From a virus, in the IMG/VR virus record IMGVR_UViG_3300043438_000779, positions 1 through 23,616 of that record: a DNA stretch of 23,616 bases; one strand, 5' to 3'. The number at the start of each line of letters is the position of its first letter. The first letter of the stretch is position 1. The position numbers were made by a program, and so were the translations under genes. Positions 2,179 through 23,585 of the stretch are shown here, one piece after another. The notes under the pieces are model-generated. The model did no database searches. It had not been told where the DNA came from and saw only the letters and a list, made by a program, of their open reading frames with translations.

Positions 2179-3577
2179 CGTCCAACGATTATTTTTAGAA
2201 ATGATGTTGGAAGACGCACAAAGTTACGTGCGTGTGCAGAACATTTATAACCCGCAGAACTTTGACAAGAGTCTGCGAGCCGCGGCTGAGTTTATCAAAG
2301 AACATTCAGACAAGCACAAGACCTTGCCCGACCGTACACAAATCTCTGCCACCACGGGTATTAAACTGCAAGCAGTGCCTGACTTGAACGAAGGCCACTT
2401 TGATTGGTTTATGGGCGAGTTTGAACAGTTTACCAAGCGGCAAGAATTAGAACGTGCTATTTTAAAAGCCGCAGACATGCTGGAAAAGGGTGACTTTGAA
2501 CCTGTAGAAAAACTGATCAAAGATGCTGTACAAATATCACTGACCAAGGACATGGGCACAGACTATTTCAGTGATCCCAAGGCACGTATTGAGAAGTATT
2601 TCAACTCGGGTGGGCAAGTGTCAACAGGTTGGCCACAACTGGACAGATTGTTGTATGGTGGATTCAGTCGTGGCGAACTCAACATCTTTGCTGGTGGATC
2701 CGGTTCAGGTAAGAGTCTTGTGATGATGAACATTGCGCTAAATTGGTTGCAACAAGGACTTAGTGGTGTGTACATCACACTGGAACTGAGTGAAGAACTA
2801 ACAAGTTTGCGAACAGATGCTATGTTGACCAACATGAGCACCAAGGACATTCGCAAAGATATTGACACCACAGAACTCAAAGTCAAGTTAGTGGCTAAGA
2901 AGTCAGGCAACTATCAAGTCAAAGGCTTGCCAGCACAAAGCAACATCAATGACATACGTGCATACTTGAAAGAGTATCAAATACAAACAGGCAAGCGTGT
3001 GGACTTTGTGATGATTGATTACTTGGATTTGTTGATGCCTGTGAGTGCAAAAGTCAGTCCCAACGACTTGTTTGTGAAAGACAAGTATGTTTCAGAAGAA
3101 CTACGTAACTTGGCCAAAGAATTGGGCTTCTTGATGGTCACAGCAAGTCAGTTGAATCGATCGGCTGTGGAAGAAATTGAGTTTGATCACAGCCATATTT
3201 CAGGTGGTATTTCAAAGATCAACACAGCAGACAACGTGTTTGGTATCTTTACAAGTCGTGCCATGAAAGAGCGTGGCAAGTATCAGATACAGTGTATGAA
3301 GTCTCGAAGCTCGACCGGCGTTGGTCAAAAAATTGATTTGGAGTACAACATTGAAACAATGCGCATTACTGACGAAGGCGGAGAAGATGGAGACACTTAT
3401 TCAAAGAAACCATCTGCATCCATCATGGACTCGATCAAAGCCCGCAGCCAAGTTAGCCCGGCTGGAGATGACAAAGACAGCCCTCCATGGGACAGTGGTG
3501 GTGACGCACCAAAAATCACAGCAGACGTTCAAAGTGCCAAACTAAAACAACTATTAGGAAAGATCAAAACATCATGA
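2156..3577 (+). CDS. Replicative DNA helicase, DnaB/T4 gp41-like
   Basis: A 473-residue RecA-fold hexameric helicase expected to unwind the fork 5'-3' and recruit the primase. The N-terminal 130 residues are helical, as in the DnaB/gp41 primase-interaction domain. Walker A is GGSGSGKS at about 180-187. Walker B is in VDFVMIDYLDLLM, with the DnaB-type TASQLNRS segment after it. The C-terminal tail (about 410-473) is polar and may be a flexible partner-binding tail. The start is TTG at 2156: the reading frame has no ATG near its beginning, and AAGGA at 2142-2146 lies 9 bases upstream inside the primase gene. This overlap with the primase suggests translational coupling. Its stop overlaps the next start (ATGA). 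Confidence 0.9.
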   Translation: MLKEYGLDVQRLFLEMMLEDAQSYVRVQNIYNPQNFDKSLRAAAEFIKEHSDKHKTLPDRTQISATTGIKLQAVPDLNEGHFDWFMGEFEQFTKRQELERAILKAADMLEKGDFEPVEKLIKDAVQISLTKDMGTDYFSDPKARIEKYFNSGGQVSTGWPQLDRLLYGGFSRGELNIFAGGSGSGKSLVMMNIALNWLQQGLSGVYITLELSEELTSLRTDAMLTNMSTKDIRKDIDTTELKVKLVAKKSGNYQVKGLPAQSNINDIRAYLKEYQIQTGKRVDFVMIDYLDLLMPVSAKVSPNDLFVKDKYVSEELRNLAKELGFLMVTASQLNRSAVEEIEFDHSHISGGISKINTADNVFGIFTSRAMKERGKYQIQCMKSRSSTGVGQKIDLEYNIETMRITDEGGEDGDTYSKKPSASIMDSIKARSQVSPAGDDKDSPPWDSGGDAPKITADVQSAKLKQLLGKIKTS

Positions 3578-4080
3578 CTAATTTAATTTTAGGTGCTAAC
3601 AGTAGATTTGGCAAGATATTAAAAAATTATTTGCCAGGAACATATTTGACTCGTCAAGAGTTTGATTTATCAAATCCTAATTTTGATCAATTTAACACAC
3701 TAACAGTGGATAACATAATTTTTTTGACAGCAAGCAACGCCAGTAGTTTTCAACAAGTTGGAAAAAATTGCGACAGTGTTTTTAAATTATTAGACATAGT
3801 CAAATACAATACAGCATGGATTTTTACTAGTGGACTCGGTACGTTTAGTGGCAGTAAAAATTATGAGAATGTTTATTACAGTACAGAAAAAATGCTGTTA
3901 AATTTCGTTGCATTTAAAAAAAATCACACAACCCATAACATAAAAATAATTCACCCAGGCCATATGAGCACAGTTGAAGAATACGCAAATACAGTCAATA
4001 ATTTTTTGCAGTTGATGGGCGACCCACCTAATAAAAATCTTATCTGGTCCCTGGCAAGAAATTCATATATTCCTTATTAA
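3574..4080 (+). CDS. Short SDR/epimerase-like NAD(P)-binding protein
   Basis: A 168-residue protein with the marks of a short-chain dehydrogenase/reductase: a nucleotide-binding loop GANSRFG at 7-13, a strand ending ASNAS at about 53-57, a candidate catalytic serine in FTSG (about 85) and Y102-x3-K106 in YYSTEK. It is much shorter than the usual 230-300 residues and lacks the C-terminal substrate-binding part, so it may be a minimal or reduced reductase. It starts by ATGA overlap with the helicase gene but is clearly more AT-rich than that gene, with many AAA/ATT/TTT codons, as is the radical SAM gene downstream. This suggests the two were acquired together. Nucleotide-sugar or small-molecule reduction is possible; the substrate is unknown. 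Confidence 0.6.
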   Translation: MTNLILGANSRFGKILKNYLPGTYLTRQEFDLSNPNFDQFNTLTVDNIIFLTASNASSFQQVGKNCDSVFKLLDIVKYNTAWIFTSGLGTFSGSKNYENVYYSTEKMLLNFVAFKKNHTTHNIKIIHPGHMSTVEEYANTVNNFLQLMGDPPNKNLIWSLARNSYIPY

Positions 4081-4126
4081 TACAAAACCACGTGCTATAC
4101 ACAATCACTGTGAGAAATAGAGTATC

Positions 4127-5266
4127 ATGAAAGATAAAAAATATTTTTGTTATGAAATATATAAAAATCTTGCAATAAGGTCTTTAAATGGGCAAATTGG
4201 ATATAGTCCCTGCTCATATTATGACGGAGTTATAAAAATTACCACTGATTTTGATTTATCTAAAGCCTGGCATAGCCCAGAACATAATCAGTTAAAATTG
4301 TTAATAGAAAATGATCAACCAATACCTGGATGTCATCAATGTTATCGTGAAGAATCACACGGTCTTGCAAGTCGTTGGAAGTCATCTAAACAACTGTATG
4401 AGGATTTTCACCAAGATACAAATATAGATCTAACCAGTCCACAAAGTATTGATTACAGCGTGGGAAATTTATGCAATTTAAAATGTTTAATTTGCGGTCC
4501 AGAGAATAGTTCTTCGTGGCTGCCTGATTATCAAAAAAAATATCCTCTAACAGACATAAACAAATTCAAATACGACAAGCACAATCAAATTGAAACACTT
4601 GATCTTGCATTGTTGATGAATGTAAAAAATATACATTTTCACGGTGGTGGTGAACCATTGATGTCTAACAATCATGTAACAATGTTAAAAAGTATAAAAG
4701 AAGCAAAAGGACTCAGTGATGTTAGAGTATTTTACAATACCAATGGCACACAAACCGTATCTCAGTCAGTTCTTGATTTGTGGGAAGAATGTAAACTGGT
4801 AGAATTATATTTTAGTATTGATGATATTGGCGATCGCTTCAATTACCAACGCACAGGCGCAAATTGGAATCAAGTAATTCAAAATATCAAATGGTTTGTG
4901 AACAACATGCCACACAATCACATGTTCAACATAAATTGTGCATGGGGATATTTAAATTTATATTACCTTGACGAAATTGAAGACTGGTATCAAAATAATT
5001 TAACAAAAAATCGATACGGCGATACTGTAAATTTAATATATCAAAAAGTAATAGGTGATTTTAGTATTAATCATGTGTCTAAGCCAACTAAAGAGGTTTT
5101 GCTAAACAAGTTTAGCAATCGCCCACGATTAATAGAATTGGTTAATTCTTTAACAACAAGTGCAGAAAGTAATAGTTTTTTCTGGGAAAAAATCAACCAA
5201 ATTGATTCTATTAGAGGCAACAGTTTTAGATCTGTATGCCCTGAGTGGGCTGAGTTGTTAGATTAA
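4127..5266 (+). CDS. Radical SAM protein, twitch/SPASM-like phage type
   Basis: A 379-residue radical S-adenosylmethionine enzyme. The [4Fe-4S]-binding motif C-x3-C-x2-C is CNLKCLIC, with C116, C120 and C123. FHGGGEPLM around 175 is the SAM-contacting GGEP motif. Extra cysteines before the core (C8, C29, C69, C72 in PGCHQCYREE) and one near the C-terminus (VCPEW) are arranged like an N-terminally placed SPASM/twitch auxiliary cluster region, a layout seen in radical SAM proteins of T4-like aquatic phages. The gene is AT-rich and follows the SDR-like gene after 46 bases. Related enzymes act on peptides or sugars; the substrate here is unknown. Its stop codon TAA shares bases with the stop of the convergent tail fibre gene. 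It depends on Fe-S supply, which the iscU/iscA cassette in this window may support. Confidence 0.85.
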   Translation: MKDKKYFCYEIYKNLAIRSLNGQIGYSPCSYYDGVIKITTDFDLSKAWHSPEHNQLKLLIENDQPIPGCHQCYREESHGLASRWKSSKQLYEDFHQDTNIDLTSPQSIDYSVGNLCNLKCLICGPENSSSWLPDYQKKYPLTDINKFKYDKHNQIETLDLALLMNVKNIHFHGGGEPLMSNNHVTMLKSIKEAKGLSDVRVFYNTNGTQTVSQSVLDLWEECKLVELYFSIDDIGDRFNYQRTGANWNQVIQNIKWFVNNMPHNHMFNINCAWGYLNLYYLDEIEDWYQNNLTKNRYGDTVNLIYQKVIGDFSINHVSKPTKEVLLNKFSNRPRLIELVNSLTTSAESNSFFWEKINQIDSIRGNSFRSVCPEWAELLD

Positions 5267-11722: not shown

Positions 11723-12660
11723 AATTAACCGAACTGGCCACACCAAAAAAGAGCCGCCAAGTAGCCAAAGTATTTGAAAGTTACTTCGGTACCAAGATGC
11801 CTGTGAACCGTCTCACAGTGCGTGAAGCACAGGCCATGCTGAAACGTGTGCGTGGAGTCATTGCTGAACATCAGCGTAGCCCCAGCCGTCATACCAGTGA
11901 ACGCAACCCTGCGTACTTAAAACTGGTGATGATGGAACAAGCATTGACAAGTCGTATCCGAGAAGAACAAGTTCCAATTCCGCCTACTTCATCCAGCACT
12001 AATCCCAGCACTAGTACTGCTACTACACCTCCACCATCGGGCAGTCAGAACACTGTGGATATCAAAGATCCTAAAATGGCTCAGGCATTGAAGAAAAGCG
12101 CAGCAGGACAAACTCTCACTCCAGACGAACAAAAAATGGTGGCTGGTCAGGCAATGATGGCTGCCGAAAGTCGTCTGCGTAGAGCATACCAGTTCTTGAA
12201 AGAATCAGAAGTTCAACAAGCACAAGTTGTGTTGGCTGCACAAGACATGGTTGACAAAATGCAAAGCATGTTGGAAGACACCACTGAAATGCAATTCAAA
12301 GAATTGCCTGCATTAGTTGATTCAATTCGCAATCAAATTGGCATGGAACAAGCCACACAGTTCAACACTGACGTCACTGGTGCATTGCAAGGACTTGTGC
12401 AAAACTTACAAGGTGCCAAGCAACAACTGGAGACAGCATTGGGTGTGGTCACAGGACAACCTGCCGCACTAGACACCAGCATGGCCGCCAGCGGTATGCC
12501 AGGTGCGACACCTCCACCAGTACCTGGTGCCGAAATGGGTGCCGATATAGGTGCTGATATAGGTGCTGATATAGGTGCTGATGTTGGAGCCGATATAGGT
12601 GCTGACCTTGAAACTGGTGCACCAGCACCCAAAGCAGCATTGGGCCGAGCACGTAGATAA
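11719..12660 (+). CDS. Helical phage protein with a GAD[IV] tandem repeat
   Basis: A 313-residue protein. Residues 1-80 are basic and helical (LTVREAQAMLKRVRG, RHTSERNPAYLKL). A Pro/Ser/Thr linker runs from about 92 to 112. A long helical region follows (about 115-245), rich in Gln, Met and Ala. A Pro/Gly linker leads into six tandem GADI-type tetrapeptides (about 274-297) and a basic tail. The layout would suit a scaffold, core or other assembly protein, but I cannot assign it. The ATG has AGAGGA upstream and overlaps the previous stop. Its own stop TAA overlaps the next ATG by one base. Confidence 0.6.
   Translation: MKLTELATPKKSRQVAKVFESYFGTKMPVNRLTVREAQAMLKRVRGVIAEHQRSPSRHTSERNPAYLKLVMMEQALTSRIREEQVPIPPTSSSTNPSTSTATTPPPSGSQNTVDIKDPKMAQALKKSAAGQTLTPDEQKMVAGQAMMAAESRLRRAYQFLKESEVQQAQVVLAAQDMVDKMQSMLEDTTEMQFKELPALVDSIRNQIGMEQATQFNTDVTGALQGLVQNLQGAKQQLETALGVVTGQPAALDTSMAASGMPGATPPPVPGAEMGADIGADIGADIGADVGADIGADLETGAPAPKAALGRARR
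12538..12609 (+). repeat. Six 12-base tandem repeats encoding GAD[IVL]
   Basis: Six head-to-tail copies of GGTGCTGATATA (with changes in copies 1, 4, 5 and 6) encode GADI-GADI-GADI-GADV-GADI-GADL. Copy changes of one unit stay in frame. The near-identity of copies 2 and 3 suggests recent slippage. Confidence 0.9.
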
Positions 12661-13016
12661 TGAGAATCGACGAAGTCGAAAACAGCAAACCACTAGATCC
12701 AGCCAAACTGCAAGGTCTAGTGGATTTTCTTTCAGGTCGTGCTGACGATGAAAATGCACAAAAACAAATCAGCACAGATGCATTTATATCAGCCGCTCGC
12801 AGTTTAGGTTTTCCTGTTAGTGAAAAAAACATTGTGAGCATTGTGAGTCAGCCTCCCTTGGACAGTGTGCTAGAACCCATGGATCCTAACAATCCCCGAG
12901 TGATCAAATACAAAGGTGCGGCTCCCGACGTAGCACCCAAAATGCCCGTAAACAAAGCACAAGACATTGTGGCCGCCTCGGCCAAATCCGCCATGCAACG
13001 CGGAATGAACAAGTAA
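12660..13016 (+). CDS. Conserved phage hypothetical protein
   Basis: A 118-residue protein starting MRIDEVE, coupled to the previous gene by a one-base stop/start overlap (TAATG). Residues about 15-60 are helical (LVDFLSGRADDENAQKQIS); a beta segment with PRVIKYKGA lies near 80. The C-terminal helix (about 95-115) is alanine-rich and basic. No catalytic motif is visible. I recall similar proteins in other T4-like phages, always uncharacterised. It is the last gene of the operon before the sigma70 promoter of the Fe-S cassette. Confidence 0.6.
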   Translation: MRIDEVENSKPLDPAKLQGLVDFLSGRADDENAQKQISTDAFISAARSLGFPVSEKNIVSIVSQPPLDSVLEPMDPNNPRVIKYKGAAPDVAPKMPVNKAQDIVAASAKSAMQRGMNK

Positions 13017-13026
13017 CCCATTCCGG

Positions 13027-13055
13027 TTGACATTTATCAGTAAATACGCTATAAT
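13027..13055 (+). promoter_or_regulatory. Perfect-consensus sigma70 promoter for the Fe-S cassette
   Basis: TTGACA (13027-13032), a 17-base spacer and TATAAT (13050-13055) match the bacterial housekeeping sigma70 consensus at all twelve positions with optimal spacing. Transcription would begin near 13062, just before the ribosome binding site GAAGGAA and the iscU ATG at 13073. A late-promoter-like GTAAATA (13040-13046) sits in the spacer. Host RNA polymerase should read this promoter strongly without phage factors. Confidence 0.88.
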
Positions 13056-13072
13056 CAGCGAAGGAATATCAC

Positions 13073-13444
13073 ATGGCTTATTCAGAAAAAGTAATTGATC
13101 ATTATGAAAATCCACGCAATGTGGGCAAGTTTGAAATTGACGACACTGTTGGTACAGGCATGGTAGGTGCACCTGCTTGCGGTGATGTGATGAAACTGCA
13201 AATCAAAGTTGAAAACGGAATTATAACAGATGCCAGATTCAAAACGTACGGATGCGGAAGTGCGATTGCCTCATCCTCTCTTGTTACCGAGTGGGTTAAA
13301 GGACGAACGCTTGACGAGGCCGCAGCTCTTAAAAATTCAGAGATTGCTCAAGAACTCGCATTGCCACCAGTCAAGATTCATTGTTCTATTCTTGCTGAAG
13401 ATGCTATAAAGGCTGCTGTAGAAGATTACAAGAAAAAACATTAA
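13073..13444 (+). CDS. iscU: Fe-S cluster scaffold protein IscU
   Basis: A 123-residue IscU, close to the usual 125-130 residues. IscU assembles [2Fe-2S] and [4Fe-4S] clusters from sulfur given by the cysteine desulfurase IscS, then releases them with HscA/HscB. All key residues are present: C36, D38, C61, H103 and C104. The HscA recognition motif LPPVK is intact at 97-101, so the protein should engage the host chaperones. The start MAYSEKVIDHYENPRNVG is typical of proteobacterial-type IscU. GAAGGAA lies upstream, behind a perfect sigma70 promoter. The gene leads a four-gene cassette with two radical SAM genes and iscA. No desulfurase or ferredoxin is encoded here, so host sulfur delivery is needed. 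Fe-S assembly genes have been reported in viral metagenomes as accessory metabolic genes. Confidence 0.96.
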   Translation: MAYSEKVIDHYENPRNVGKFEIDDTVGTGMVGAPACGDVMKLQIKVENGIITDARFKTYGCGSAIASSSLVTEWVKGRTLDEAAALKNSEIAQELALPPVKIHCSILAEDAIKAAVEDYKKKH

Positions 13445-13450
13445 CACAAC

Positions 13451-15175
13451 ATGTCGCGTAGCCCAAGCAGTTTTTTTTCACAAAAAAAAACTAGGATATT
13501 ATTTTATCAAACTGGAATGCAAGGTTGGATCAAAGTTAATGTTTTGGTGTTTAAAACATATATTGATACGCTGTATCCAGAACTAGCAGAAAAATTAGAA
13601 TGGTTGTTGCCTATACAAGATGCAATGACTGACGATGAGTTACTACAACATATTAAACAAAACAATGTTGATATTTTATGCACCAGTCATTATCTTTGGA
13701 ACCATGATTTTTTAATCAATCAGTTAGCTCGTATCAAGCCTAAACTGCATATTCAAGCAGTAATTGCAGGTGGTCCCAGCATTGATGTCAACAACAACAA
13801 ATATTTTTTTGATCAACACCCCTACATTGACTATGCAGTGTACGGTGCAGGCGAACAGGCATTTGCAGACATTGTCAGTCATTTGGTATTAGAAACGCCC
13901 ATGATTGCATTCAACACATCCAACTGTGCCTGGAAAAACAATCAAACTGGAAAAACAAATGTGGCCAATTACAAGTTTGTAAAGATGTTAGAGACCAGTC
14001 CTTTTGTACACAATGCAGAACTATTTGGGCGTATGGTTGCAAATGCCAAGAAAAAAAATGTGACTAACGTAGCTGAGTGGGTCCCGTACACTCTCACAAG
14101 AGGTTGCCCGTATGCATGTACATTCTGTGATTGGAACAGCGGACTTGGAAACAAAGTGTCTCGGCGCAAAAACACCTATCAACAAGAAATTGATTTGTTC
14201 CACAAATTAGGAGTTAAAAACATTTATTTGTCTGACGCCAATGTTGGACAATATGATGAAGATGTTGACATGGTCGAATACTTTGCTCAAAAAAATCTGC
14301 AAGAAAATGCAGGTTTTCGTATATCAGGAAATTATAGCAAGTTAAACAAAAAAAACAATTTGAAAATGTTTAGCATTATGGCCGAAAGTGGTCTTGTGCA
14401 AAAGACTTTGAACTTCTCCATACAGGACATCAATGAACAAGTATTAAAAAACATTGATCGTCCGGATGTGGGGTGGGAGACACATGTAGCCATGGCTGAC
14501 GAATTGCGAGGGAAATATCCTCACTTGATTGTCAAAACTCAGTTGATTTGTGGATTGCCTGGACAAACAGTTGAATCGTGGCGACAGACCATGCAACAAA
14601 TTCTTGCAAAAAATATGTTACCAATTTGGTTTGTAAATGAACCATTGCCAGCCAGTCCTGCCATGTATGATCCAGAATACCAAAAGAAATGGGAATTTGA
14701 ATACGACAAGGCTGTACGTAAAGATTTTCAACAAAATTATTATGTAGGTATAATTCCTAAAAAGTGTGTTTCATTTAGCCAACATGATCTAGTAGAAATG
14801 TTTATATTATCAGGGATATGCGAGGCAATTAGTCTAATAAATTTAACCATGATACAACATGTTGGATCGCGAATAGACACTGAATTTATAATTGATAATT
14901 TGTTGCTCAGCGAAGGATATCGTATTTTATGTGACAATCTTTATAAAAATTGGTCCAACGAACAAATTTTTTATCTCACTCAAGATTTTTCAGGAAATGT
15001 TGCAAATTATTCTTGTGAAGTTGGGTACCATGGTGTAGAGTTGATTAACCACGAGAAATTTCTTTTGCAAGTTCAAAACTTGTTACCAGATGATCAAAAA
15101 GAACAGTTATCTCATTTGGCCAGAGAAAAAATCTTATTTCATTACGTTATGAAACTATATGCTGAATTGGCTTGA
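13451..15175 (+). CDS. Radical SAM enzyme with N-terminal B12-binding-like domain (copy 1)
   Basis: A 574-residue radical SAM protein. The N-terminal about 150 residues form a Rossmann-like domain of the cobalamin-binding type (VIAGGPS near 104-110, YGAGEQAF near 131-138), but the DxHxxG motif that supplies the cobalt-ligand histidine is missing. The radical SAM core follows, with C-x3-C-x2-C in RGCPYACTFCDWNSG (C219, C223, C226). Segments such as YLSDANVGQYDEDVDM and QLICGLPGQT match later strands of the barrel. The C-terminal about 150 residues are of unknown fold. Members of this broad class do methylations, cyclisations or rearrangements; the substrate is unknown. It lies 6 bases after iscU, and its stop overlaps the start of a close paralogue. 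Confidence 0.88.
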   Translation: MSRSPSSFFSQKKTRILFYQTGMQGWIKVNVLVFKTYIDTLYPELAEKLEWLLPIQDAMTDDELLQHIKQNNVDILCTSHYLWNHDFLINQLARIKPKLHIQAVIAGGPSIDVNNNKYFFDQHPYIDYAVYGAGEQAFADIVSHLVLETPMIAFNTSNCAWKNNQTGKTNVANYKFVKMLETSPFVHNAELFGRMVANAKKKNVTNVAEWVPYTLTRGCPYACTFCDWNSGLGNKVSRRKNTYQQEIDLFHKLGVKNIYLSDANVGQYDEDVDMVEYFAQKNLQENAGFRISGNYSKLNKKNNLKMFSIMAESGLVQKTLNFSIQDINEQVLKNIDRPDVGWETHVAMADELRGKYPHLIVKTQLICGLPGQTVESWRQTMQQILAKNMLPIWFVNEPLPASPAMYDPEYQKKWEFEYDKAVRKDFQQNYYVGIIPKKCVSFSQHDLVEMFILSGICEAISLINLTMIQHVGSRIDTEFIIDNLLLSEGYRILCDNLYKNWSNEQIFYLTQDFSGNVANYSCEVGYHGVELINHEKFLLQVQNLLPDDQKEQLSHLAREKILFHYVMKLYAELA

Positions 15176-16893
15176 TGAATACCACTATGATATCTGTAAA
15201 TAATAAAAAGTTAAAAATATTGCTGTATCACGCTGGTGGAACAAAGTCTTGGTTATATCCGGCTGTGTTGCATCTAAAAACCTATGTTGATATAACATAT
15301 CCAGAAATTGCCAAGCAACTAGAATGGCTAGTGCCTGTTCAACAAACAATGACCAATGATGAATTGTTGATATACATTGATCAATATCAACCAAACGTTC
15401 TTTGCACCAGTCATTATATCTGGAATCACGAATACTTGATAAATCAACTGGTTCAAATTAGATCACAGTTGCCTGCCCATGTCAAAGTCATTGCAGGTGG
15501 TCCCAGCATCAATGTCAATCTTGACCCTGACTTTTTTATCAAGCACCCTTACATTGACTATGCAGTGTACGGTGCAGGAGAACAGGCATTTGCAGACATT
15601 ATTAAAAGTCTAGTTACTGAAACTCCACTGATTGCATTCAACACATCCAACTGTGGCTGGGTAAATCACCATACTGATTTGCCTATTGTAGCAGATTATA
15701 AATTTGTAAAAATGATCAGTACCAGTCCTTTTACACACAATCGAGAATTGTTTGCTGAGATGACCCGCACAATTTTAGACCGTAACGGAACACTGTATTT
15801 GCCATACACATTGACCAGGGGATGTCCGTATTCTTGTACATTTTGTGATTGGAACAGCGGATTAGGAAACAAGATATCTCGACGCAAGAATACCTACCGG
15901 GAAGAAATTGATCTATTTTATGAACTGGGAATCAGACAAATTTATCTGTCAGATGCCAATGTTGGACAGTATGACGAAGATGTTGACATGATTGAATACT
16001 TTGCACAAAAAAATCTGCAACACAATGCTGGATTTAAAATCAGTGGCAACTACAGCAAACTACGCAAAGACGTCAACTTGAAAATTTTCAACATCATGGC
16101 CGAAAGTGGTCTAGTGCAAAAGACGCTGAACTTTTCTATACAAGACACCAATGAGGAAATATTGAAAAACATTGATCGGCCCGATGTGGGCTGGGAAACT
16201 CATGCAGCCATGGCAGATGAACTGACCACACGACATCCGCAGTTGATTGTGAAAGCACAATTAATTTATGGATTACCTGGACAAACGCCGTTGACCTGGC
16301 GGGAAACTCTGCGACAAATAACTCAAAAAAATATACTACCCATTGTATTTTTAAATGAACCATTGCCAGCCAGTCCTGCGGTGTATGATCCTGAGTATCA
16401 ACGCAAATTTCAATTTGAATACGTAAAATCCACAAGGATTAATCCAAATTTTGATTTTTATGTAAGCGAAATTCCCAAAAAATGTATTTCGTTTGATCAG
16501 CAAGATTTGGCAAAAATGACAGTGTTGTCTGGGTTCTATAATGCTCTAAGTGTGATAAAATTTATTACGATACGACACACTGGAATGCACATAGACATTG
16601 AACCAATTATTGATAATTTGTTAAACAGCAGCGGATACAGTATACTATGCAACAACCTCTATACCAACTGGATCAACGAACAAAAATTTTATTTTACTCA
16701 GGATTTTTTAGGAAACCCTATACTAAAATCTTGTGAGCCTATGTCATTTGGTGGGTCGTTAACAGTTGATGACCGTTTTATTTTACAGGTGTTAAAGGTA
16801 TTGCCTAGAGACGTATCAAAAAAACTTTTTCAATTGACTGTAAAAAGCGACTTCAAACAAATTGCCAACGAGCTATGCAACGAGATTGACTAG
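15175..16893 (+). CDS. Radical SAM enzyme with N-terminal B12-binding-like domain (copy 2)
   Basis: A 572-residue paralogue of the preceding gene, starting at the ATG that shares an A with the upstream stop (TGATG). The radical SAM cysteines are C217, C221 and C224 in RGCPYSCTFCDWNSG. The N-terminal Rossmann-like region again has GGPS and YGAGEQAF but no DxHxxG. The core is very similar to copy 1 (for example ISRRKNTYREEIDLFYELGI and NIDRPDVGWETH), while the N-terminal edge, the segment before the cysteines and the last 150 residues differ more. This pattern fits duplication followed by specialisation, for example to two substrates, or to form a heterodimer. iscA follows after 11 bases, so both enzymes are framed by Fe-S assembly genes. 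Confidence 0.88.
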   Translation: MNTTMISVNNKKLKILLYHAGGTKSWLYPAVLHLKTYVDITYPEIAKQLEWLVPVQQTMTNDELLIYIDQYQPNVLCTSHYIWNHEYLINQLVQIRSQLPAHVKVIAGGPSINVNLDPDFFIKHPYIDYAVYGAGEQAFADIIKSLVTETPLIAFNTSNCGWVNHHTDLPIVADYKFVKMISTSPFTHNRELFAEMTRTILDRNGTLYLPYTLTRGCPYSCTFCDWNSGLGNKISRRKNTYREEIDLFYELGIRQIYLSDANVGQYDEDVDMIEYFAQKNLQHNAGFKISGNYSKLRKDVNLKIFNIMAESGLVQKTLNFSIQDTNEEILKNIDRPDVGWETHAAMADELTTRHPQLIVKAQLIYGLPGQTPLTWRETLRQITQKNILPIVFLNEPLPASPAVYDPEYQRKFQFEYVKSTRINPNFDFYVSEIPKKCISFDQQDLAKMTVLSGFYNALSVIKFITIRHTGMHIDIEPIIDNLLNSSGYSILCNNLYTNWINEQKFYFTQDFLGNPILKSCEPMSFGGSLTVDDRFILQVLKVLPRDVSKKLFQLTVKSDFKQIANELCNEID

Positions 16894-16904
16894 TAAATAC
16901 TATT

Positions 16905-17228
16905 ATGATAACCATAACTGATCAAGCACGAAACAAAATCCAAAAATTGGTTCAAACCAAGGGCTATGCTGGCATACGTCTGGGGGTTAAAACTACCGGT
17001 TGCTCAGGGCTTGCTTATGTGTTAGAATATGTTAAAGAATACGAACCTGACGCTGGCAACATAAATTATGCTCAAAATGATTTCTGTGTGTTAGTTGACA
17101 AAAAACATGATGTATACCTGCGTGGCACACAAGTAGACTATGTACGCCAAGGCCTCAATGAAGGCTTTGAATTTACCAATCCCAATGAACGTGACCGCTG
17201 CGGTTGCGGAGAAAGTTTTAGAGTTTAA
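16905..17228 (+). CDS. iscA: A-type Fe-S cluster carrier IscA/ErpA
   Basis: A 107-residue A-type carrier, the same length as E. coli IscA. The three conserved cysteines are present: C33 in TTGCSGLAYVL and C99/C101 in RCGCGESF. A-type carriers receive clusters from IscU and pass them on, in particular as [4Fe-4S] clusters, to apo-enzymes that include radical SAM proteins. The gene follows the second radical SAM gene by 11 bases and ends the cassette opened by iscU. No Shine-Dalgarno sequence is visible. GTAAATA at 16893-16899 lies just before the start but is too close for a normal promoter, so expression probably comes from upstream. IscA, SufA and ErpA cannot be told apart with certainty from sequence alone. 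Confidence 0.95.
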   Translation: MITITDQARNKIQKLVQTKGYAGIRLGVKTTGCSGLAYVLEYVKEYEPDAGNINYAQNDFCVLVDKKHDVYLRGTQVDYVRQGLNEGFEFTNPNERDRCGCGESFRV

Positions 17229-17946
17229 TTTGTTAAATCCCAGATTTGATTACCAACCAGTACCACGTGTCACAATTGAAGGCAAACGCTACTATGCCAC
17301 ACCTGACGGAAACAAGTTACCCAGTGTCACAACCATACTTGACAAAACCAAAAGTGAGGAAAGCAAACGGGCTTTGCAGAACTGGCGAGCCAGAGTGGGT
17401 ACAGAAGCGGCACAGGCCATTACCACAGAAGCAGCCAACCGTGGCACCCGTATGCATACCTATCTTGAACAATATGTCAAAGAAGGCGTGATCAAAGATC
17501 GTGGTACGAATCCGTTCTCATGGGCCAGTCATGCTATGGCACACAAGGTTGTGGAATACGGTTTGAAGAATGTGAGTGAATTTTGGGGCATTGAGGTTCC
17601 GCTGTATTTTCCCAAAGTGTACGCAGGAACAACTGATGGTGCAGGCATACATTTAAATGAAGAAGCCATATTAGATTACAAGCAAACCAACAAGCCCAAA
17701 AAACGCGAATGGATTGATGATTATTTTGTGCAGTTGTGTGCCTATGCTGAAGCACACAATGAACTGCATGGAACACGAATCAAAAAAGGCGTAGTTTTGA
17801 TGTGTGTCAAACCCCAGCTGGATGAACAAATGAACATGATCACCCAGCCAGAATATCAGGAATTTGTGCTGGAGGGGCAGGAATTTGAAAAATATCGTGA
17901 CCTGTGGTGGAAAAAGGTTGAACAGTATTACTTGCTAAATATGTGA
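17185..17946 (+). CDS. PD-(D/E)XK exonuclease, RecB/Cas4-like
   Basis: A nuclease of the RecB-like PD-(D/E)XK superfamily, expected to trim DNA ends in phage recombination or host DNA breakdown. Visible motifs are an N-terminal LPSVTTIL, RGTRMHTYLEQY (motif I histidine region), GTTDGAG (acidic motif II), ILDYKQ at about 163 (D-x-K motif III) and YFVQLCAYAEAHNE (Q-x3-Y motif IV). The start is uncertain. The frame is open from 17140, inside iscA. I used the ATG at 17185 (44-base overlap with iscA), but the conserved part begins near FNLLNPRFDY, so TTG at 17230, two bases after the iscA stop, is also credible, as is ATG at 17158 behind AAGG. As I recall, similar nucleases occur in many T4-like aquatic phages. 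Confidence 0.82.
   Translation: MNVTAAVAEKVLEFNLLNPRFDYQPVPRVTIEGKRYYATPDGNKLPSVTTILDKTKSEESKRALQNWRARVGTEAAQAITTEAANRGTRMHTYLEQYVKEGVIKDRGTNPFSWASHAMAHKVVEYGLKNVSEFWGIEVPLYFPKVYAGTTDGAGIHLNEEAILDYKQTNKPKKREWIDDYFVQLCAYAEAHNELHGTRIKKGVVLMCVKPQLDEQMNMITQPEYQEFVLEGQEFEKYRDLWWKKVEQYYLLNM
17935..17941 (+). promoter_or_regulatory. Candidate late promoter variant (CTAAATA)
   Basis: CTAAATATG overlaps the end of the nuclease gene and lies 31 bases before the GTG start of the tail protein, with GAAGGAA between. The arrangement matches that before the gene at 11719. Tentative. Confidence 0.38.
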
Positions 17947-17965: not shown

Positions 17966-19717
17966 GTGGCAATCGTACAAATATCAAGAATTACCGCCCG
18001 CAAAGGTCTGCAAGAAGATTTACCTCAACCCCTGGCAGGTGCTGAACTAGGCTGGGCAGTTGACGATCGTAGGCTGTTCATTGGCAATGGTGCCCTAGAA
18101 GAAGGTGCCCCTGTAGTTGGCAACACAGAGATCTTAACTGAATTCTCAGATATCTTAAGTTTTGCTGGACAGTACACTTTCAAAGGCGAAGCTGCTGGAT
18201 ACACTGCACAAACAGGTGCCACACCCAGTAGTCCAATTTCACAAAGCATACAAAGTCGACTGGACAGTTATGCAGTGATCACAGACTTTGGTGCAGTGGG
18301 CGACGGAGTGACTGATGACACAGCGGCTATCAATCGTGCATTATTCCAATTGTTCTGTGTGCAAAACAACACAGCTATTCGACGCAGTCTGTTTTTCCCT
18401 GCTGGCAACTACATAGTCACAAACACAATAAAAATCCCTCCTTATGCCAAACTCTACGGCGAAGGTGCCAACAGCAGTGTCATCAACTTCTTGGTGCAAA
18501 ACTGGGCAGCCAATACAGCGTATGCTGAAAGTACATTGGTATACTATGTTCCCAACAGCACATACTATAGAAGCATTGCCCCTGTGCCTGCCACAGGCAT
18601 TGTGATTTCAAATGCGTTGTACTGGGCTGCTGAATCATTGCCCAGTTACGTGGTACAAACCGCTGACAGTTTGCAACAAACAGGTGTAAACATTGCTACC
18701 AACGGTGCCACTCCGCCAACAAACATTGAAGTATCTAGCATGGCCATTGTGACAAATCAAATGAACAATGGTCTATTGATTGAAAATGCACAACAGTGTT
18801 CTTTCAGCAGCATGGATTTCACTGGTCCATTGACCACTGCTGATTTGACCACATCCGTGGATGATACTCGTGCAGTTGACTGGGCCAGCACTGTGAGTTT
18901 GCCATGCAAACAAGTAAATTTTGATAACTGTAAATTTTCGGGATTTACTTACGGCACGAATACTGAACAACAAATACAAGGATGTGTGGTCAGCAATGGC
19001 CAATTTGACACATTGTACCAAGGGGCTATACTAGGTGGTGCCACTCCCAGCAATGGCGGTCCCACTGGTGTAAAATTCATTGGCAATGTTTTTGACAACA
19101 TCTACGAAGAAGGCATTTTGATCAATGGTGTGAGTTTGAATGCCTCAGGTTACAATATATTCTATGATGTGGGCAACCACTTCAATGGTACAGCACTGCC
19201 AGCATCGGCAGTGATTACTATTGATGCCATCAACAACATCAGTGTTGGCGACATGTTCCAACGTGCCACAGCCTTCAGTGGTACCTATCCTAGAATTAAA
19301 ATCTTTAATGGTGCCACACAAACTGTGCCTGCCAGCATTGGCATTGACAGTGCTGCTCAAATTCAAATGGGCAGTTTCGTAAGAGAGACTGGCACACAAG
19401 CAACTCTCAGTGCTGGTGCTACTGCTACCACATTGTTCACAGTGAGTTCAGTACAGATCAAAGCATTTCAAATGGAATACACAATCACTAGAGAAACATC
19501 AGTGAGAACAGGTACTATAACAGTGGTCAATGATGCTGATGATAGTGCAGGAGATGGACTGAGTTACACTGACGATTTTGTGCAAAATTCAGACACTGAT
19601 GTAATATTAGAAGTTACTGACGTAGGCAGTACAATGAGTGTAAAATACACTACTGATGCCGTTAGAGCTGCTGGTAAAATCTATTACAGTTTGACACACT
19701 TGGGTCGTAGTTATTAA
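17966..19717 (+). CDS. Tail fibre/tailspike with Mtd-like N-terminus and pectate-lyase-type beta-helix
   Basis: A 583-residue tail protein. Residues 1-55 (ISRITARKGLQEDLPQPLAG, then AELGWAVDDRRLFIGNG) match the small N-terminal domain shared with the phage major tropism determinant and many fibres, which attaches to the tail. From about 105, ITDFGAVGDGVTDDTAAINR is the hallmark start of a pectate-lyase-superfamily right-handed beta-helix, and the body to about 450 shows beta-helix-like turns. The C-terminal about 110 residues form a separate beta domain. Such proteins bind or cut host surface polysaccharide. The start is GTG at 17966, supported by GAAGGAA at 17952-17958. No catalytic acid set could be assigned with confidence, so enzyme activity is open. 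Confidence 0.82.
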   Translation: MAIVQISRITARKGLQEDLPQPLAGAELGWAVDDRRLFIGNGALEEGAPVVGNTEILTEFSDILSFAGQYTFKGEAAGYTAQTGATPSSPISQSIQSRLDSYAVITDFGAVGDGVTDDTAAINRALFQLFCVQNNTAIRRSLFFPAGNYIVTNTIKIPPYAKLYGEGANSSVINFLVQNWAANTAYAESTLVYYVPNSTYYRSIAPVPATGIVISNALYWAAESLPSYVVQTADSLQQTGVNIATNGATPPTNIEVSSMAIVTNQMNNGLLIENAQQCSFSSMDFTGPLTTADLTTSVDDTRAVDWASTVSLPCKQVNFDNCKFSGFTYGTNTEQQIQGCVVSNGQFDTLYQGAILGGATPSNGGPTGVKFIGNVFDNIYEEGILINGVSLNASGYNIFYDVGNHFNGTALPASAVITIDAINNISVGDMFQRATAFSGTYPRIKIFNGATQTVPASIGIDSAAQIQMGSFVRETGTQATLSAGATATTLFTVSSVQIKAFQMEYTITRETSVRTGTITVVNDADDSAGDGLSYTDDFVQNSDTDVILEVTDVGSTMSVKYTTDAVRAAGKIYYSLTHLGRSY

Positions 19718-20154: not shown

Positions 20155-22476
20155 ATGAAAAGCATCACAGTTGTAAAGCGTAGTGGGCATAGAGAACCGC
20201 TCGCCTTGGAAAAATGGCAGACCCAAATTGCCAAAGTATGTGCAGGCATAGCAGACGTTAGCCAAAGCATGGTAGAGATCAAAGCACAGTTGCACTTTTA
20301 TGATGGTATTACCACCAAAGAGATCGACGGTATTACTCTACGTGCCATTGTGGACTTAATCGACGTGGAATCCAATCCTGATGTTGGGCACACCAACTAT
20401 CAATATGTGGCAGGCAAACAACGCTTGTCAATGCTACGCAAAGATGTATACGGTTCCTACGATCCTCCCCACTTGTATGAGATCGTGAAGACCAACGTGG
20501 CCACTGGCCTGTACACTCCCGAACTCCTGGAATGGTACTCAGAGGACGATTGGAATCGTATGCAAGACATGATTGATCATGCCAAGGATGAATCATACAG
20601 TTATGCCGCAGTAGAGCAACTAATTGAAAAATACCTAGTAAAGAACCGTAGCACAGGACAAACATATGAAACTCCGCAAGTTAGATACATGGTGGCCGCT
20701 GCCACTGTGTTCCATAAAGAAGAACCCAACACAGCCCGCATGCGTTATATCAAAGAATACTACACAGCAGCCAGCGACGGACTCTTCACTCTGGCCACAC
20801 CTGTGTTGGCTGGCCTTGGTACTCCTACTAAGCAGTTTAGCAGTTGTGTTCTTATTAGATCAGACGATGACTTGGATAGTATATTTGCCAGCGGTGAGAT
20901 GATGGCCAAGTATGCCAGCAAACGTGCTGGCATTGGCTTGGAGATTGGACGCCTGCGCCCACTAGGTTCGCCTATTCGCGGTGGTGAGATCATGCACACT
21001 GGTATGATTCCTTTCCTTAAAAAATGGTTTGGCGACCTACGTTCATGTTCACAAGGAGGTATTAGAAATGCTTCGGCTACGGTTTTTTATCCCATATGGC
21101 ATCTGCAGTTTGATGACCTTATCGTTCTTAAAAACAACCAAGGTACAGAAGAGACCCGGGTACGACACATGGATTATGGTGTCGTGTTATCTGCATTCTT
21201 CTGGCGTCGCTTTAAGAACAAGGAGAACATTACGTTCTTCGACCCCAATCAAGTACCTGACCTTTATGAAGCCTTCTATAAAGACACTGCCCTTTTCGAA
21301 ACACTATACGTAAAATACGAAAAAGACAGCAGCCTCCGTAAGAAAACGATGGCTGCGGAGGAAGTTTTCAAAAGTGGTATTCTCAAGGAACGAACCGATA
21401 CTGGACGTATCTATCTAGTGTTCATTGACAATGTCATGGATCAAGGACCGTTTGATCCTGAGTACCATACCATTTATCAAAGCAATCTCTGCTGTGAAAT
21501 TCTTTTACCTACCAAGCCTTTCAAACGCCTAGACGATGAGGAAGGGCGTATTGCACTGTGTACCTTGGGGTCAATCAACTGGGGTGCGTTCAGACACCCT
21601 GAAGACATGCGTAGAGCCTGTCGTGTACTTCAACGCAGCCTTTGTAACATATTAGATTACCAGGACTTCTTGAGTATTCAAAGTCAACTGTCCAACGATG
21701 AAATCCAGCCATTGGGTATTGGCATTACAAATCTAGCTTACTGGCACGCCAAACGTGGACTGGAGTATGGAGAACGGGATGCCTTGGCAGAAGTCAAGTC
21801 ATGGATGGAGCACCAAGCATACTACTTGACCGAAGCCACAGTGGAACTGGCCAAAGAACGTGGTCGTTGCCGAGACAGTGACAAGACACGCTATGGCAAA
21901 GGAATTTTTCCTTGGGAACTACGTGCCAAAGGTGTTAATGAACTCACAGACTTCACACCTGATCCTGCACTAGACTGGAATACCCTGCGTGGCAACATGC
22001 GAGCATACGGTGTGCGTAATGCCACCTTGATGGCAGTGGCTCCTGTAGAGTCTAGTTCAGTTGTGATCAACTCAACCAATGGTATTGAAATGCCCATGAG
22101 CTTGATCTCAGTCAAAGAATCAAAAGCAGGAAGCCTTACACAAGTTGTACCTGAATACCACAAGTTAAAGAATCGATATCAGTTGATGTGGGCACAAAAG
22201 GATTGTGTTGGCTATTTGAAAACAGCCGCTGTGTTGGCAGCATACATTGATCAGAGTATCAGCACCAACACATTCTACAATCCAGCACACTTTGCAGATC
22301 GCAAAGTACCTACCACATTGATTGCCAAGAACTTGATGCAGGCACATCACTGGGGTATCAAGACATTCTATTACAGCCTGATCAACAAGCAAGGTGCCAA
22401 AGCCGCCAAAGAAGAATCACCGTTGGAAGTCATTGACTTTGATGACGTAGAAGACTGCGAAAGTTGCAAATTATGA
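20155..22476 (+). CDS. nrdA: Ribonucleotide reductase class Ia, alpha subunit NrdA
   Basis: A 773-residue catalytic subunit that reduces ribonucleoside diphosphates to deoxy forms for phage DNA synthesis. The N-terminal about 90 residues form an ATP-cone-like allosteric domain (VVKRSGHREPLALEKWQ). Active-site residues fit the E. coli pattern: C231 and C469 as the redox pair, C446 as the radical cysteine in N444-x-C446-x-E448 (SNLCCEILLPT), Y739-Y740 in the radical path (KTFYY) and the tail cysteines C768/C771 (CESCKL), which are re-reduced by thioredoxin or glutaredoxin. The start is ATG at 20155, with TTAGGAT just upstream. It overlaps nrdB by ATGA, giving balanced subunit synthesis. No truncation or intein is seen. 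Confidence 0.97.
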   Translation: MKSITVVKRSGHREPLALEKWQTQIAKVCAGIADVSQSMVEIKAQLHFYDGITTKEIDGITLRAIVDLIDVESNPDVGHTNYQYVAGKQRLSMLRKDVYGSYDPPHLYEIVKTNVATGLYTPELLEWYSEDDWNRMQDMIDHAKDESYSYAAVEQLIEKYLVKNRSTGQTYETPQVRYMVAAATVFHKEEPNTARMRYIKEYYTAASDGLFTLATPVLAGLGTPTKQFSSCVLIRSDDDLDSIFASGEMMAKYASKRAGIGLEIGRLRPLGSPIRGGEIMHTGMIPFLKKWFGDLRSCSQGGIRNASATVFYPIWHLQFDDLIVLKNNQGTEETRVRHMDYGVVLSAFFWRRFKNKENITFFDPNQVPDLYEAFYKDTALFETLYVKYEKDSSLRKKTMAAEEVFKSGILKERTDTGRIYLVFIDNVMDQGPFDPEYHTIYQSNLCCEILLPTKPFKRLDDEEGRIALCTLGSINWGAFRHPEDMRRACRVLQRSLCNILDYQDFLSIQSQLSNDEIQPLGIGITNLAYWHAKRGLEYGERDALAEVKSWMEHQAYYLTEATVELAKERGRCRDSDKTRYGKGIFPWELRAKGVNELTDFTPDPALDWNTLRGNMRAYGVRNATLMAVAPVESSSVVINSTNGIEMPMSLISVKESKAGSLTQVVPEYHKLKNRYQLMWAQKDCVGYLKTAAVLAAYIDQSISTNTFYNPAHFADRKVPTTLIAKNLMQAHHWGIKTFYYSLINKQGAKAAKEESPLEVIDFDDVEDCESCKL

Positions 22477-23585
22477 GCCAAGCCCAATACAACCTATCAA
22501 CCAAAACAGACTACCTGAGCCGCAAGATGTTTCTTGACCCAGCCGGTCCTGTCACCATTCAACGTTTTGAAGAAGTCAAGTACAACAAACTTGTGAAGTT
22601 TGAACAAGAAGCACGTGGCTTCTTTTGGATACCTGAAGAAGTATCATTGACCAAAGATGCCAACGACTTCAAAGACTCTTCAGACACTGTGCGACATATC
22701 TTTACATCAAACTTGTTGCGTCAAACAGCCTTGGACAGTTTGCAAGGACGTGGCCCAGCACAGGTGTTTACCCCTGTGGTGAGTATTCCTGAACTAGAAG
22801 CATTGATGTACAACTGGAGTTTCTTTGAAACCAACATTCACAGTAGAAGTTACAGTCACATCATTCGCAACATCTACAACGTGCCCAAGGATGTTTTCAA
22901 CACAATTCACGACACACAAGAGATTGTAGACATGGCATCGAGTGTGGGCAACTACTACGACGAACTACACAGAATAAATTGCCATAAAGAATTAAGCAGT
23001 GAAATGACAGGTATGGTTCTCGAACAAGAACATATCAAAGCCATTTGGCTAGCACTCAACGCCAGTTATGCACTAGAAGCATTCCGCTTCATGGTCAGCT
23101 TTGCCACAAGTCTGGCCATGGTTGAGAACCGTATCTTCATTGGCAACGGCAACATCATCAGCCTGATCCTGCAAGACGAAATCCTGCACAAGGACTGGAC
23201 TGCTTGGATCATCAACCAAGTTGTCAAAGAAGATCCACGCTTTGCCGCTGCCAAGGCCGAATGCGAAGCCGAAGTGTATCAGTTGTACCTGGATGTGATC
23301 CGTGAAGAAAAAGCCTGGGCTGACTACCTGTTCCAGAAAGGTCCTGTGATTGGACTCAATGCCAACATTCTCAAAGACTTTGTGGACTACACAGCAGTAG
23401 GCGCACTCAAAGAAATTGGCGTCAAGTACCAGGAGCCGGCACCACGCAGCACACCCATTCCCTGGTTTATGAAGCATGTGGACACGTCAAAGAAACAAAC
23501 TGCACTGCAGGAGAACGAATCAACTAACTATGTTATCGGCGTCATGAGTGATCAACTAGATTACGACGAATTGCCAGATTTATAA
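22473..23585 (+). CDS. nrdB: Ribonucleotide reductase class Ia, beta subunit NrdB
   Basis: A 370-residue radical-generating subunit, partner of NrdA, starting at the ATG that overlaps the nrdA stop. A TTG nine bases earlier is in frame but unnecessary. Di-iron ligands and the radical tyrosine can be placed by the E. coli pattern: D88, E119, H123, E202, E236 and H239, with Y127 in IHSRSYSHIIRN. One oddity is that E119 and H123 are four apart (E-T-N-I-H), whereas E. coli has E-x-x-H; flanking spacings (D88 to E119, H123 to Y127) match E. coli, so this is a one-residue insertion between two ligands. The C-terminus (SDQLDYDELPDL) is the acidic tail that docks onto NrdA. Confidence 0.95.
   Translation: MSQAQYNLSTKTDYLSRKMFLDPAGPVTIQRFEEVKYNKLVKFEQEARGFFWIPEEVSLTKDANDFKDSSDTVRHIFTSNLLRQTALDSLQGRGPAQVFTPVVSIPELEALMYNWSFFETNIHSRSYSHIIRNIYNVPKDVFNTIHDTQEIVDMASSVGNYYDELHRINCHKELSSEMTGMVLEQEHIKAIWLALNASYALEAFRFMVSFATSLAMVENRIFIGNGNIISLILQDEILHKDWTAWIINQVVKEDPRFAAAKAECEAEVYQLYLDVIREEKAWADYLFQKGPVIGLNANILKDFVDYTAVGALKEIGVKYQEPAPRSTPIPWFMKHVDTSKKQTALQENESTNYVIGVMSDQLDYDELPDL

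Follow-up and report, generated by a model that had tools for sequence, protein, structure and literature searches.

Organization of the iscU locus

The window, by which we mean the whole 23,616-nt virus record IMGVR_UViG_3300043438_000779, carries a gene for an Fe–S assembly scaffold protein, iscU, which is separated by a gap of 56 nt from a preceding 118-aa open reading frame, w_118. The gap is occupied by a sigma70 consensus promoter sequence. The following genes and promoter elements are considered here.

12660..13016, plus strand: w_118, 118-aa open reading frame, ending in a stop codon 10 nt ahead of the promoter
13027..13032, plus strand: -35 hexamer TTGACA, read directly; 0 differences among 19 clade-1 sequences
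13033..13040, plus strand: 8-nt half-spacer following the -35 hexamer, variable; clade-1 mean pairwise difference 0.384
13041..13046, plus strand: TAAATA, predicted T4-type late element inside the sigma70 spacer, assigned from its register, its enrichment and the position of late elements (PMC1524935); predicted late start ~13052
13050..13055, plus strand: -10 hexamer TATAAT, read directly; clade-1 mean pairwise difference 0.018; predicted sigma70 start ~13062
13061..13065, plus strand: Shine-Dalgarno-like AAGGA, read directly
13073..13444, plus strand: iscU, NifU_N-type Fe–S scaffold protein, 123 aa (PF01592, E 2.3e-52; phrog_8429)
13451..15175, plus strand: radical-SAM/B12-binding protein 1, of low GC content, variable cargo
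15190..16893, plus strand: radical-SAM/B12-binding protein 2, 63% identical to protein 1
16905..17228, plus strand: iscA-like A-type Fe–S carrier, 107 aa (PF01521, E 2.8e-19; phrog_17776)
17140..17946, plus strand: exonuclease of the same co-directional block (phrog_298, E 2.1e-54); the true start may be later
20155..22476, plus strand: nrdA-like ribonucleotide reductase large subunit, syntenic downstream; C48C1 NrdA matches the orthologue in the related genome G002
22464..23585, plus strand: nrdB-like ribonucleotide reductase small subunit, named from its orthologues and from synteny

For w_118 neither a Pfam nor a PHROG match was found. Between the exonuclease and the nrdA/nrdB-like genes lie a tail-fibre-like gene and then a 141-aa open reading frame, w_141. 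The nearest cellular matches of the window IscU are from freshwater Comamonadaceae (91%), which we therefore regard as the likely hosts.

Several further features of the window were noted. The exonuclease reading frame and the end of iscA overlap by about 88 nt (17140-17228), and in several relatives the homology reaches into the overlap. Positions 13470-13494, in the 5′ coding part of the first radical-SAM gene, contain T8 and A9 tracts that together make up an AT hairpin (AGTTTTTTTTCACAAAAAAAAACT) and a possible slippage site. An AT-rich island with a GC content of 0.31-0.32 (3574-5266) holds a short open reading frame and a further radical-SAM gene; at the same place in G002 no match to either of these island genes was found. 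ARAGORN calls a tRNA-Tyr at 887-985 within a virion-like open reading frame (74-1153), and this call is probably a false positive.

The sigma70 promoter sequence

The sequence TTGACA-N17-TATAAT at 13027-13055 of the plus strand agrees with the sigma70 consensus at all 12 positions. The first-pass annotation had pointed out this exact consensus in front of the Fe–S cassette, and the observation holds, there being no second 12/12 site anywhere in the 23.6 kb record. The runners-up in the window are two 11/12 sites, at 19005 (N16) and at 15485 (minus strand), both of which lie within genes. For the two strands together, a first-order Markov model with the dinucleotide content of the window predicts about 0.0067 such sites at N17, and 0.02 when spacers N16-18 are allowed. 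A match to a consensus by itself proves no function, and the site could in principle be a chance match. With only ~0.007 sites expected and a conserved footprint, as described below, we regard the probability of such a functionless match as close to negligible.

Conservation of the promoter region

We compared 80 IMG/VR loci with close IscU relatives, all of them recruited through IscU. In many of these the gene order is w_118 - iscU - (0 to 2 radical-SAM genes) - iscA - exonuclease - fibre - w_141 - nrdA, and this order persists down to ~40% identity of the neighbouring proteins. Where w_118 is followed by iscU, 44 of 55 loci have a sigma70 match of 11/12 or better within the first 140 nt past the w_118 stop codon, nearly always 1-20 nt past that stop. 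In 28 of 29 loci the -10 hexamer and the ATG are 16-18 nt apart. Several loci contain a small open reading frame with a signal-peptide-like start (MKKLIAL...) between the promoter and iscU, and the promoter is still found at the w_118 junction. In L017 (1304-1690) an apparent 5′ remnant of iscU (MAYSQKVIDQIVK) comes after the promoter, and the intact iscU lies 382 nt downstream.

Within clade 1 (n = 19) the mean pairwise difference is 0.000 for the -35 hexamer, 0.384 for the adjoining 8-nt half-spacer, 0.000 for TAAATA, 0.035 for the following 3 nt and 0.018 for the -10 hexamer. At the four-fold sites of iscU in the same clade it is 0.182. Both hexamers at the iscU locus are therefore under selection, as their values (0.000 and 0.018) lie far below those of the half-spacer and of the four-fold sites. 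Judged from these sequence comparisons, the sigma70 site is very probably a functional promoter.

TAAATA is as invariant as the -35 hexamer. Among 41 distinct homologous promoters 30 carry it exactly 8 nt past the -35 and 3 nt before the -10 hexamer, whereas shuffled spacers have it in this register 0.06 times on average and 2 times at most. These register and footprint counts ignore shared ancestry, but the adjacent 8 nt drift in the same set of sequences and thereby provide an internal control. The exact TAAATA is missing from the other 11 distinct promoters, some of which retain an 11-12/12 sigma70 match; the late element is thus not indispensable. This observation would also suit a plain early sigma70 promoter, in which TAAATA, as part of the spacer, affects no more than promoter strength or geometry without being recognised by a late sigma factor.

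In a second clade (L023, L026, L030, L033, L045 and others) the -35 hexamer past w_118 is part of a dyad, GTCAAC-N5-GTTGAC, of which it makes up one arm; the dyad could serve as an operator. One might accordingly suppose that a phage repressor or activator binds TAAATA or dyads near the promoter and thereby times a sigma70 promoter. The dyad over the -35 hexamer in this one clade speaks for such a regulator, but the window's own clade lacks it, and TAAATA is an upstream motif found genome-wide and placed like a core promoter element. We therefore consider a regulator of this kind improbable.

TAAATA as a predicted late-promoter element

Genes and start codons of the genomes compared were called by a simple script. 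In G002 (148 kb) words containing TAAATA top the list of sequences enriched upstream of genes. Of the 208 genes of this genome 39 have TAAATA in the 70 nt upstream (3.5 expected; 6 on the antisense strand), as do 42 of 239 genes of the related genome G015 (2.8 expected). In the window the corresponding count is 9 of 23 genes with 0.5 expected, and the sigma70 site thus stands among genes that carry late-type elements. The first-pass annotation had noted T4-type late elements elsewhere in the window. None of the hexamers of the same composition is as enriched. Many of the copies lie 20-35 nt ahead of the start codon, and the copy at iscU lies at -32. Genes carrying the motif include tail-fibre-like, virion-structural and holin genes; most of the G002 carriers that were tested have no annotation.

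The late promoter of T4 has the sequence TATAAATA at -13 to -6, while Aeh1 uses CTAAATA and S-PM2 NATAAATA (PMC1524935, PMC2984593). In the genomes studied here the base preceding TAAATA is free, with A, C, G and T all being enriched. The element at iscU matches the relaxed late-promoter form NTAAATA (positions -13/-12 to -6), of which the Aeh1 sequence is an example, and the full TATAAATA is absent there.

A gp55-like late sigma factor is encoded by G014 (E 2e-22) and G015 (E 1.5e-23), both of which carry iscU and have a gene set in common with G002 and the window. Neither the window nor G002, both of them fragments, yielded a gp55 match; for G002 the search used PHROG, Pfam and a home-made profile. 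The G015 genes that flank gp55 have no homologues in G002 either, so the lack of gp55 in this fragment is explained, at least in part, by the region around gp55 being missing from it. Searches for gp33 and gp45 found neither in the fragments or in 200 kb of G015; the phrog_223 search had no positive control.

Two promoter classes and their overlap at iscU

In G002 and G015 all genes preceded by TAAATA have a best sigma70 score of at most 9/12, with the sole exception of iscU (12 and 11). Genes with a sigma70 score of at least 10 are otherwise without TAAATA. There are 21 strong N17 sites in G002 and 17 in G015, and only the spacer of the iscU site contains TAAATA. The enrichment of TAAATA before genes lacking a good sigma70 site, its absence from the spacers of the other strong sigma70 sites in both genomes and its resemblance to the known late elements of T4, Aeh1 and cyanophages all argue against a plain early promoter with a spacer that only tunes its strength or geometry, and we consider that explanation rather unlikely.

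The first-pass annotation had proposed a genome-wide promoter scan and had seen only weak sigma70-like matches elsewhere in the window. When the scan was run on the relatives, sigma70 sites were found in front of a minority of genes: only 13 of the 208 genes predicted in G002 reach a score of 10/12 or better in the 75 nt before them. A restriction of sigma70 control to the cassette, however, breaks down on the genome scale, since the 148 kb of G002 contain 21 N17 sites with at most one mismatch as compared to 2 for a reversed control pattern. As the relatives are rich in sigma70 sites, it is the combination with TAAATA that is peculiar to the cassette and not the sigma70 signal.

Many of the strong G002 sites are of the type TTGACC-AATAATT...TG-N-TATAAT and lie in an early-looking region of small open reading frames (61-91 kb); several of these promoters leave about 30 nt to the ATG as compared to 16-18 nt at the iscU loci. 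A near-identical family of early-type promoters, TTGACCAATAATT-N-CC-N4-TGCTATAAT, precedes small open reading frames in G002 (L083, L085, L086), G001, G003 and G004.

On the plus strand of G002 the stretch from iscU to 30.3 kb was found to contain no further sigma70 site scoring 11/12 or more (N16-18). The exonuclease and nrdAB might therefore depend on the iscU promoter for their early expression.

We also considered whether the composite pattern is exclusive to iscU across IMG/VR and rejected this, because the pattern is found in unrelated viral contigs, as is a control pattern. Among the matches listed, iscU lies within 60 nt of the composite pattern in 6 of 121 cases and within 1.5 kb in 2 more; for the control pattern the count is 0 of the 120 listed.

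Origin of the cassette

The first-pass annotation had seen a fit with an early metabolic takeover role or a moron-type insertion; the latter would be a recent acquisition bringing its own early promoter. The radical-SAM genes do have a GC content of 0.36-0.38 as compared to ~0.45 around them, and they are present or absent at the same site in close relatives: the interval between iscU and iscA (window 13451-16893) holds 0, 1 or 2 of them and is an insertion hotspot. For iscU and iscA themselves no such presence and absence was seen. Both are in place, in syntenic positions, across dozens of divergent contigs with neighbours down to ~40% identity, these loci having been recruited by IscU. In addition, insertion of a gene before iscU leaves the promoter in place at the w_118 junction. 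The preserved order and the fixed position of the promoter lead us to conclude that iscU and iscA are long-standing residents and that the radical-SAM genes are variable cargo. The promoter is also missing from 80 cellular iscU genes, which score at most 9/12, and an origin of the promoter from a host was accordingly rejected. A recent insertion with its own promoter thus appears highly improbable.

One apparent phage relative, 'Acinetobacter phage MD-2021a', was set aside. Two records, CAKLQF020000009 and CAKLQH020000011, bear this name, and the former carries a bacterial isc operon (iscR, iscS, iscU, iscA, hscB, hscA, fdx) and resembles host DNA.

A probable nested early/late promoter

Taken at the level of sequence, the data make it likely that iscU is preceded by a nested dual-phase promoter, used first by the host sigma70 polymerase and later by a polymerase with a gp55-like late sigma factor. 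Early in infection the host RNA polymerase, still unmodified and carrying its main sigma70 factor, would use TTGACA-N17-TATAAT and start at ~13062, giving a transcript with an 11-nt leader that begins within the AAGGA sequence. Later the host polymerase equipped with a gp55-like phage sigma factor would recognise TAAATA and transcribe the same block from ~13052, with a 21-nt leader beginning about 9 nt before AAGGA. As the footprints of the two holoenzymes overlap, their use should be mutually exclusive, and the site would be handed from one form of the polymerase to the other. Through this handover iscU, the radical-SAM genes where present, and iscA would be kept on throughout infection. We infer the use of TAAATA by a gp55-like sigma factor, both start sites, their timing and the early reach to the exonuclease and nrdAB.

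Of the earlier proposal that the cassette is served by a host-polymerase promoter, the part concerning a sigma70-type promoter, very probably a functional one, is supported, as the hexamers are fixed and the half-spacer drifts. The second part, that the cassette is transcribed separately from late transcription and apart from the virion genes, is not supported because the late-type TAAATA sits in the spacer and is conserved in register.

A more far-reaching and rather doubtful possibility is that the nested promoter heads the long co-directional series iscU - radical SAM - iscA - exonuclease - tail fibre - nrdA - nrdB. The handover might then have both Fe–S assembly and ribonucleotide reduction transcribed during the whole infection, and the change of leader, from ~11 nt early to 21 nt late, might shift translation.

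Discussions of auxiliary metabolic genes in uncultured phages usually stop at gene content. In this case regulation could be read from the sequence, and Fe–S assembly emerges as the one function found that is apparently on in both phases of transcription. This suggests a continuous need for Fe–S supply, perhaps for the many radical-SAM enzymes of these phages. The nested promoter predicts two start sites 10 nt apart.

Comparison with known systems

Taken separately, both elements have familiar counterparts. The sigma70 site matches the bacterial consensus and phage early promoters at 12/12 positions of TTGACA-N17-TATAAT. It has no TG extended -10, whereas many other strong sites of G002, those of the TTGACC type, have the TG and a longer leader. 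The TAAATA elements share with T4-type late promoters the short AT element just upstream of late genes, the absence of a -35 box and the core TAAATA; they differ in that the bases before TAAATA are free and in that the late sigma factor was found only in the relatives G014 and G015.

Marine T4-like phages with IscU, an A-type carrier and radical-SAM genes have been described (PMC5332604). They have the same gene set but are marine, whereas the window IscU is nearest to that of freshwater Comamonadaceae, and the passages of that paper considered here do not treat promoters. In T4 gene e and I-TevI a late promoter lies near the ribosome-binding site of a gene that is also contained in early transcripts (PMC3014915). 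There a hairpin in the early transcript hides the ribosome-binding site.

A parallel for the combination of both elements is RB49, a T4-like phage without motA and asiA, whose middle-type genes are thought to be controlled by overlapping early and late promoters; such overlaps have been proposed for S-PM2 and Syn9 as well, with middle-like or prolonged expression as the proposed outcome (PMC2984593). As in RB49, sigma70-type early and gp55-type late elements are predicted here to overlap before one gene. Unlike in RB49, the late element is nested, at a fixed register, inside the sigma70 spacer of 17 nt. The gene concerned codes for an Fe–S assembly scaffold and does not belong to the MotA-dependent genes of T4; no other gene with both signals was found in the genomes examined. 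Overlapping early and late promoters are thus already known, and what is new here is the nesting, the fixed register and the association with one Fe–S operon.
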